From NCBI GenBank assembly GCA_013152655.1, contig JAADFW010000145.1:1-56845 (forward strand): 56,845 bases of DNA, given 5' to 3'. A model generated the notes under the pieces. That model was not told the origin of the DNA. It was given only the letters and a program-made list of their open reading frames with translations, and made no database searches. The position numbers and the translations under genes are program-made. The stretch's first letter is position 1; the number at the start of each line of letters is the position of its first letter. Shown in pieces: positions 51,071 to 52,440 of this stretch. The stretch is from Chlorobiota bacterium. Lineage in GTDB: Bacteria; Bacteroidota; Bacteroidia; Bacteroidales; B39-G9.

Positions 51071-51457
51071 TTAGAATTGTTTTCTGTTTATAATCTCAGA
51101 GTATATTATTGCATTTTTTAAATCAAATTCAATTCCTGCGTCCTCTTCGTTTAAAATAATATCAAAATCTTTTATTGGTGTTTTATCAGGTATTACATCT
51201 TCTCCTTCAATAAAAACAGGCTCGGTTTTTTTTGTTTCTATTTCTACTTTTTCTTCATACTCAGTTGTTGGTTCAGGGGTATTTTCAACCATATTTGAAA
51301 TACCTGACTGAAGAACATCCATGAAATTAAACGGTTTTTTTTGTTCACTACTTCCTGTAATATTTTGTGTTGGTTTTTTCTTCTTTTTAAGAGCTGAAGC
51401 GATGATTATTATGGCACTTATTACAATATATAAAATGCTTTCCCAATTTTTATCCAT
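51071..51457 (-). CDS. Small single-pass membrane protein, function unknown
   Basis: Not recognised. There are 128 residues: one N-terminal membrane segment (ESILYIVISAIIIIASAL), a run of five Lys (KKKKK) that should stay in the cytoplasm, then a polar Glu/Thr/Pro-rich region (PEPTTEYEEKVEIETKKTEP) and the end EFDLKNAIIYSEIINRKQF. Similar short N-anchored acidic proteins are common in Bacteroidota and uncharacterised. It lies 41 bp downstream of the basic protein gene at 51499 and 109 bp before the receptor operon, from which a promoter separates it. Confidence 0.65.
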   Translation of the reverse strand: MDKNWESILYIVISAIIIIASALKKKKKPTQNITGSSEQKKPFNFMDVLQSGISNMVENTPEPTTEYEEKVEIETKKTEPVFIEGEDVIPDKTPIKDFDIILNEEDAGIEFDLKNAIIYSEIINRKQF

Positions 51458-51498: not shown

Positions 51499-52017
51499 TT
51501 AATTATTGTTATTATCAATGATATAACTTTTTCTTCTTTTATTAATTCTATTAGTATTGTTAAAGACTCCTTCAATTTTACTAAATCCTTTTTTAAATTG
51601 AATTTTTGATTGTATTACCGTGCTTTTAATTTTCAACTTCATATACTTATAAATTCTTTGATGTAAATATTCTGTCGGTTTGTTCTGATTAATTCTTTTT
51701 GCCGATTTTTGCAAATTCTTCATTCTTTTTCGTGTAGCTTTAGTCTGAATTTTTTTTATTTTTTTTCTATTAGCCTTCCTGTCTGCTCTTTGTTGTTTTT
51801 TTATTGCTTTATACTCTTTATGTTCTTTTTTCAACTGCGAAAGGTTATTTAACTTATATGCTAATCCTATTTTCCCACTTTTTTTTATTTTACCATTATC
51901 AATAGAATATTTTTGACTATACAAAGCATTATAATTGAATAGTAAAAACGATATTAAAAATACTAATTTTACAATTTGTATATTTATAATAAGTAATATT
52001 GTATGAAAAGAATTCAT
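51499..52017 (-). CDS. Secreted Lys/Arg-rich protein, function unknown
   Basis: Not recognised. An N-terminal hydrophobic signal of about 30 residues (LVFLISFLLFNYNALYSQ) is followed by a strongly basic region: KKQQRADRKANRKKIKKIQTKATRKRMKNLQKSAKR. Further basic helices and the tail SYIIDNNNN follow. A charge this high suggests binding to nucleic acid, LPS or another polyanion outside the cytoplasm, but that is inference. The ATG at 52017 overlaps the start of the divergent gene at 52003 by 15 bp. No later ATG before the basic core would keep the signal, though a non-ATG start is possible. Confidence 0.6.
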   Translation of the reverse strand: MNSFHTILLIINIQIVKLVFLISFLLFNYNALYSQKYSIDNGKIKKSGKIGLAYKLNNLSQLKKEHKEYKAIKKQQRADRKANRKKIKKIQTKATRKRMKNLQKSAKRINQNKPTEYLHQRIYKYMKLKIKSTVIQSKIQFKKGFSKIEGVFNNTNRINKRRKSYIIDNNNN

Positions 52018-52440
52018 TTATCAAAAATACTGATTTTTTCAGCATCTTTTTTTTTATTGTTTATTCACAGTTTTTGTGTTAAAAAAGAAGAAAAACTCCC
52101 TTTTGCATACATCAATTACAGTTTTTATTTAACCGATCCGGCATTTTTTAATCTCAATTCTATTGGTGGGTATGCTGTAATTAAAAATGAAGGTATTAAT
52201 GGAGTAATTGTTTACAGAAAAAGTTTAGATGAAATAATGGCTTATGATGGAAATTGCACTTACCAGCCATCTGCCCGTTGCGGGGTTAAATTAAGTACCG
52301 ACCAAATAAGTGCAACTGATTCTTGTTGCGGCTCAGTTTTTCAATTATACGATGGGTTTCCTACAAAAGGCCCTGCCACACTGCCTTTATACGAATATAA
52401 AGTTACTGTTGAAAATGAAAGAGTTACAATTACAAATTAA
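52003..52440 (+). CDS. Rieske-like envelope protein lacking the histidine cluster ligands
   Basis: A 145-residue protein with a signal sequence ending near FIHSFCVKKEE; the Cys may be a non-canonical lipid site. The second half follows the Rieske pattern: IVYRKSLDEIMAYDGNCTYQP, then DSCCGSVFQLYDGFPTKGPATLPLYEYKV, with the usual GPA...PL...Y spacing. In a true Rieske protein the first pair is CxH and the second CxxH; here they read CTY and SCCG. So the fold looks right, but the two His ligands are absent. Extra Cys (ARC and CC) could give another metal site or disulfides. A strong terminator follows. Confidence 0.7.
   Translation: MKRIHLSKILIFSASFFLLFIHSFCVKKEEKLPFAYINYSFYLTDPAFFNLNSIGGYAVIKNEGINGVIVYRKSLDEIMAYDGNCTYQPSARCGVKLSTDQISATDSCCGSVFQLYDGFPTKGPATLPLYEYKVTVENERVTITN

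Follow-up and report, generated by a model that had tools for sequence, protein, structure and literature searches.

The Rieske ferredoxins of dioxygenases are soluble, cluster-bearing proteins. Extracytoplasmic iron-sulphur proteins acquire their cofactor in the cytoplasm and are then exported by the Tat system, and the Rieske protein is itself a Tat substrate (PMC7317946; PMC5449189). In NirD of Bacillus bataviensis, which shares the Rieske fold, one Cys and one His ligand are found to be substituted (PMC3475470). In the present study, a gene at 52003-52440 of the forward strand has been analysed, in a window of 56,845 nucleotides (the whole stretch of DNA under analysis). The open reading frame was confirmed to be real and gives a product of 145 amino acids; together with its homologues, the AlphaFold2 model and the Foldseek matches to Rieske structures, it points to a lipoprotein of Rieske fold which probably carries no cluster. 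No description of such a cluster-less Rieske lipoprotein family was found in the open-access literature searched, and no curated Pfam or NCBIfam model covering it was found. At the last residue of the protein (52435-52437 of the window), Asn is terminal in 191 of the 219 family members.

Fold and former cluster site

The AlphaFold2 model of the protein has a mean pLDDT of 92 (65 aligned sequences). Foldseek listed 50 PDB matches for it, every one of them a Rieske-domain protein (probability 1.00, best E-value 4e-5), with TM-scores of up to 0.73 by target length among the matches listed. These include dioxygenase ferredoxins, oxygenases, the Rieske domains of Chlorobaculum and Kuenenia, PetC3, the small subunit of arsenite oxidase and NirD. 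An hhalign profile alignment with 21 canonical Rieske proteins of Bacteroidota gave a probability of 99.7% (E-value 1e-26). The initial annotation had suggested a Rieske-like fold, to be checked by a profile search against Rieske families; the suggestion is borne out by the model with its fold search, and the profile comparison did not reject it. On the predicted structure, membership of the Rieske fold superfamily is confirmed, with the beta-sandwich and the two-loop cluster-binding subdomain.

The lone sequence scores weakly in Pfam (12.1 bits for Rieske_2 against a cut-off of 27), its search against PF00355 (Pfam Rieske) gave no match, and Pfam/NCBIfam scans of single proteins of the family returned sub-threshold matches only. 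Such scores below the cut-offs would be expected of a non-Rieske beta protein resembling the fold by convergence, but this explanation is contradicted by the fold search, by the profile-profile match and by the intermediates L026, L093 and L049, each of which exceeds the Pfam Rieske cut-off unaided, and it is considered extremely improbable. In a tree which included the motif columns, and in which many inner forks are not resolved, a fully supported branch separates all the ligand-deficient sequences from the canonical ones, in agreement with the earlier proposal of a separate subfamily.

Both hhalign and the motif alignment pair C-x-H of the canonical proteins with C85-T86-Y87, and CP-x-HGS with D106-S107-C108-C109-G-S. 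As CPxH lies opposite D106-S107-C108-C109, three of the four ligands are replaced (Y87, D106 and C109) and C85 alone is left. Thus, the former CxH motif (52255-52263, forward strand) retains its Cys and has Tyr87 for His, whereas in the former CPxH motif (52318-52329, forward strand) the ligand Cys is replaced by Asp106 and the ligand His by Cys109, with C108 of the classical disulfide between them; in place of the CxH and CxxH ligands of PF00355, the protein has C85/Y87 and D106/C109. C93 (52279-52281, forward strand) and C108 occupy the positions of the classical Rieske disulfide. Both cluster histidines had been noted as missing from the sequence alone and this is correct, their positions being Y87 and C109. 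Of the ligand pairs first read as CTY and SCCG, the former stands as C85-T-Y87, whereas SCCG does not contain the position of the ligand Cys, which is D106.

In L005, L066 and L067, relatives of the window from the same GTDB family, Cys is still present at 106, so this lineage may have gained Asp106 fairly recently. A Flavobacterium-type group carries C-N...C...C-x-C-D, in which both His are replaced in another manner; from its motif, this group appears to be a parallel decay of the ligand set.

Cysteine pairing

The pairing of the cysteines was analysed in 219 non-redundant relatives in which the fourth ligand position is other than His, Asp or Glu. Of these, 199 have both C85 and C109 and 20 have neither, and one without the other is never seen; C93 and C108 occur together in 131 and are jointly lacking in 78, the other 10 being exceptions (concordant in 209 of 219). 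No comparable signal couples the C85/C109 set to the C93/C108 set in these 219 relatives. In an unbiased ranking by APC-corrected mutual information, C93-C108 came first and C85-C109 second of 9,462 column pairs, with z-scores of 10.9 and 8.0. With the motif columns left out of the tree, C93 changes 33 times and C108 36 times, with about 9.4 of 10 supported pairs concordant (median p 0.004); C85 and C109 change 7 times each and all 4 supported independent pairs are concordant, which is too few for significance. The conservation of the four cysteines had been set as a check on the annotation, and what emerges is no free variation but two strict pairs, C85/C109 and C93/C108.

Since these are paired cysteines in a periplasmic protein, two disulfides are predicted. 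For C93-C108 the prediction corresponds to the classical Rieske disulfide, for which Cys at both positions and the first coevolution rank are seen at the sequence level. For C85-C109 it is drawn from the covariation and the second rank, and joint loss of this pair would also follow if both residues were metal ligands.

The C85-C109 disulfide could alternatively be redox-active, that is, a thiol-disulfide electron carrier or switch which succeeded the cluster. The pair does sit where the cluster used to be, and 199 of the 219 relatives retain it; however, it forms no CxxC motif, it is missing in several lineages (the 7 changes on the tree) although the gene is kept, and no redox partner was found among the neighbours examined, so that this role is judged improbable. 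In an extended form of this idea, the [2Fe-2S] centre would have been swapped in situ for a Cys pair through surviving intermediates, running from four ligands to three Cys and one His, to three Cys, to the two-Cys disulfide and finally to none, and the new disulfide would be a working periplasmic thiol redox centre; as a whole, we give this series a slim chance.

Export signal and metal binding

A Sec/SPII signal peptide is predicted at 52003-52077 of the forward strand, with Cys25 (codon 52075-52077) as the lipidation residue, on the basis of the conserved Cys column and the Tat-motif counts. The signal reads MKRIHLSKILIF...FC and has no twin-arginine motif, so it is not of the Tat type, and 216 of the 219 family members have Cys in the lipidation column. 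Under a broad pattern all 31 canonical relatives show a Tat-like motif, and under a strict pattern 28 do, with RR in 14; in the ligand-deficient relatives it is found in 2 of 243 (broad) and 6 of 243 (strict), i.e. about 2%, all these figures being pattern counts as distinct from signal-peptide predictions. This switch of signal type provides independent evidence for the loss of the cluster, which holds for the members bearing C106 too. Missing Tat machinery was considered as the cause of the change and is unsupported, as the genome has a TatC gene, in a copy with in-frame stops. The TatC frame of this genome (L305, C265:8154-8861) has two in-frame stops near 'KYRKHS*KI*GKAALS', reflecting either an assembly error or a damaged gene.

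The export signal also bears on whether the altered site, consisting of C85, Y87, D106 and C109 here and of C85, C106 and C109 with His or Tyr in relatives, may still bind Zn or [2Fe-2S]. Residues do sit on all four cluster-ligand positions, C85 and C109 are lost jointly, 14 of the 219 relatives have a set of three Cys and one His, and zinc-knuckle-like CPxCG motifs are present in some relatives. On the other hand, a cluster inserted before export would fit poorly with a Sec/lipoprotein signal. Among the 199 members with C85/C109, 126 have Asp and 68 have Cys at the third ligand position, but all 20 members lacking this pair have Asp there, which shows Asp106 to be independent of such a site. 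Moreover, a range of residues (Y, H, F, V, A, N, W or L) occurs at position 87, and in L255 and L259 all four Cys are missing. The optional Cys106, the variable position 87 and the members without all four Cys make a general metal role unlikely, and binding of Zn or [2Fe-2S] at this site is regarded as rather unlikely, if less so than the redox roles above. An all-Cys metal site, one of the options first put forward, is likewise unlikely in this protein, given that C106 is optional and some relatives lack all four Cys.

Metal could be bound by the relatives with three Cys and one His or with CPxCG, and could be held by the C106-containing relatives (68 of 219, which include the 14 of the three-Cys, one-His type) and by a Parabacteroides '(2Fe-2S)-binding' protein. 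Membership of the zinc ribbons was rejected, as the resemblance is limited to the CPxCG-bearing relatives and the present protein has no CPxCG. Several relatives are recorded here as observations in their own right. The protein of L034 (5932-6405) is Parabacteroides WP_005867883, annotated by NCBI as '(2Fe-2S)-binding protein'; in this protein and in that of L154 (2992-3450), the ligand positions are filled by three Cys and one His and the classical disulfide is missing; each is a candidate for an unusual metal site. In L191, L201, L204, L213 and similar relatives, C93/C108 is lost and Cys104 stands beside C106 (TCYCPVCGSK) in a zinc-knuckle-like arrangement.

Distribution and neighbouring genes

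Of 295 genomes from the same order, 217 were found to have a homologue of the protein. A profile search across the phylum matched 162 of 396 sampled genomes, a count which takes in canonical Rieske proteins, and a tighter profile confirmed 256 further relatives in GTDB contigs, where a scan with the single protein as query gave no match. Nearly all of the 80 loci kept from these contigs are titled as Bacteroidota MAGs, with one Alphaproteobacteria and one Chlorobiota. With homologues in 217 of 295 genomes and 256 confirmed relatives, the observation is not due to chance, and this is a large, unnamed family of envelope proteins widespread in the Bacteroidota, being present in about three quarters of the sampled genomes of the order.

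A gene for a secreted, Lys/Arg-rich small protein (51499-52017, reverse strand) lies head-to-head with the Rieske-like gene, their 5' ends overlapping by 15 bp. Of the 215 loci, from the order and from MAGs, that have 500 bp or more upstream, 120 carry it in divergent orientation; its product is a candidate partner. This product belongs to a conserved family with no convincing match in Pfam/NCBIfam. Next to it, at 51071-51457 of the reverse strand, a small membrane-anchored protein with a C-terminal FDLxxAxIYSEIxxR motif is encoded; of the 171 loci with over 1.5 kb of upstream sequence, 65 have it at this location. Its motif reads in detail FDLxxA(V/I)IYSEI(L/I)xR and is conserved beside the divergent pair. 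However, the unrelated AhcY gene lies downstream in convergent orientation in 85 of 182 loci, that is, kept about as often as the Lys/Arg-rich neighbour, and gene linkage may therefore at most hint at a function; reading a function from the conserved head-to-head neighbour was kept weak for this reason.

Discussion

Our analysis suggests that the 52003-52440 gene probably encodes a Rieske-fold protein, lipid-anchored in the envelope and devoid of [2Fe-2S], in which the C85-C109 disulfide would stand in for the cluster in a redox-inactive scaffold and the export route would have passed from Tat to Sec. Ancestral Rieske proteins would have received the cluster in the cytoplasm and crossed the membrane via Tat in a folded state. 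Three ligand positions have been replaced in the family (here His by Tyr87, Cys by Asp106 and His by Cys109) and the export route would have changed to a Sec/lipoprotein signal, by which the protein would reach the envelope unfolded and free of the cluster. In the oxidising periplasm, a disulfide between C85 of the first cluster loop and C109 of the second would tie the loops together in the cluster's stead, beside the classical disulfide C93-C108, and the lipid-anchored fold might then serve a binding or structural role without redox activity. The fold relationship, the replaced ligands, the paired cysteines and the lack of a Tat signal are established by the analysis; the disulfides, the absence of metal and this order of events are what we infer, and the absent ligands are the basis for proposing a scaffold role. 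Of the options initially listed for the protein, the redox-inactive scaffold and the disulfide protein are jointly the best supported; the all-Cys metal site is unlikely for this protein but may apply to some relatives, namely those with three Cys and one His.

The family offers a natural series of a metal-cofactor protein turning cofactor-free, in which ligand loss, a predicted loop-to-loop disulfide and the change from Tat to Sec coincide. It also defines a widespread envelope family without a curated model, and suggests that Rieske-like names, e.g. '(2Fe-2S)-binding protein', may mislead the annotation of Bacteroidota lipoproteins.

Among the known systems, NirD (Rieske_2, PF13806), the small subunit of assimilatory nitrite reductase, shares the Rieske fold and gives weak matches to the protein. 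Whereas NirD is a nitrite reductase subunit (PMC3475470), the present protein is an exported lipoprotein with another Cys arrangement; its lipoprotein signal, the scores below cut-off for Rieske_2 and TIGR02378 and the lack of nirB among the neighbouring open reading frames place it outside NirD. The Rieske ferredoxins of dioxygenases (carbazole CarAc, 1vck; HcaC) are the closest solved structures among the Foldseek matches listed and, unlike the present protein, are not lipoproteins. With the canonical Rieske proteins of PF00355 (bc1/b6f Rieske, PetC3 and the Tat-exported Bacteroidota Rieske lipoproteins), the family shares the fold, the C-terminal GPA..PL..Y, the loop positions and the cysteine positions C93/C108, whereas it differs from them in having three of the four ligands replaced, Sec/lipoprotein export instead of Tat and the extra loop-to-loop pair C85/C109.
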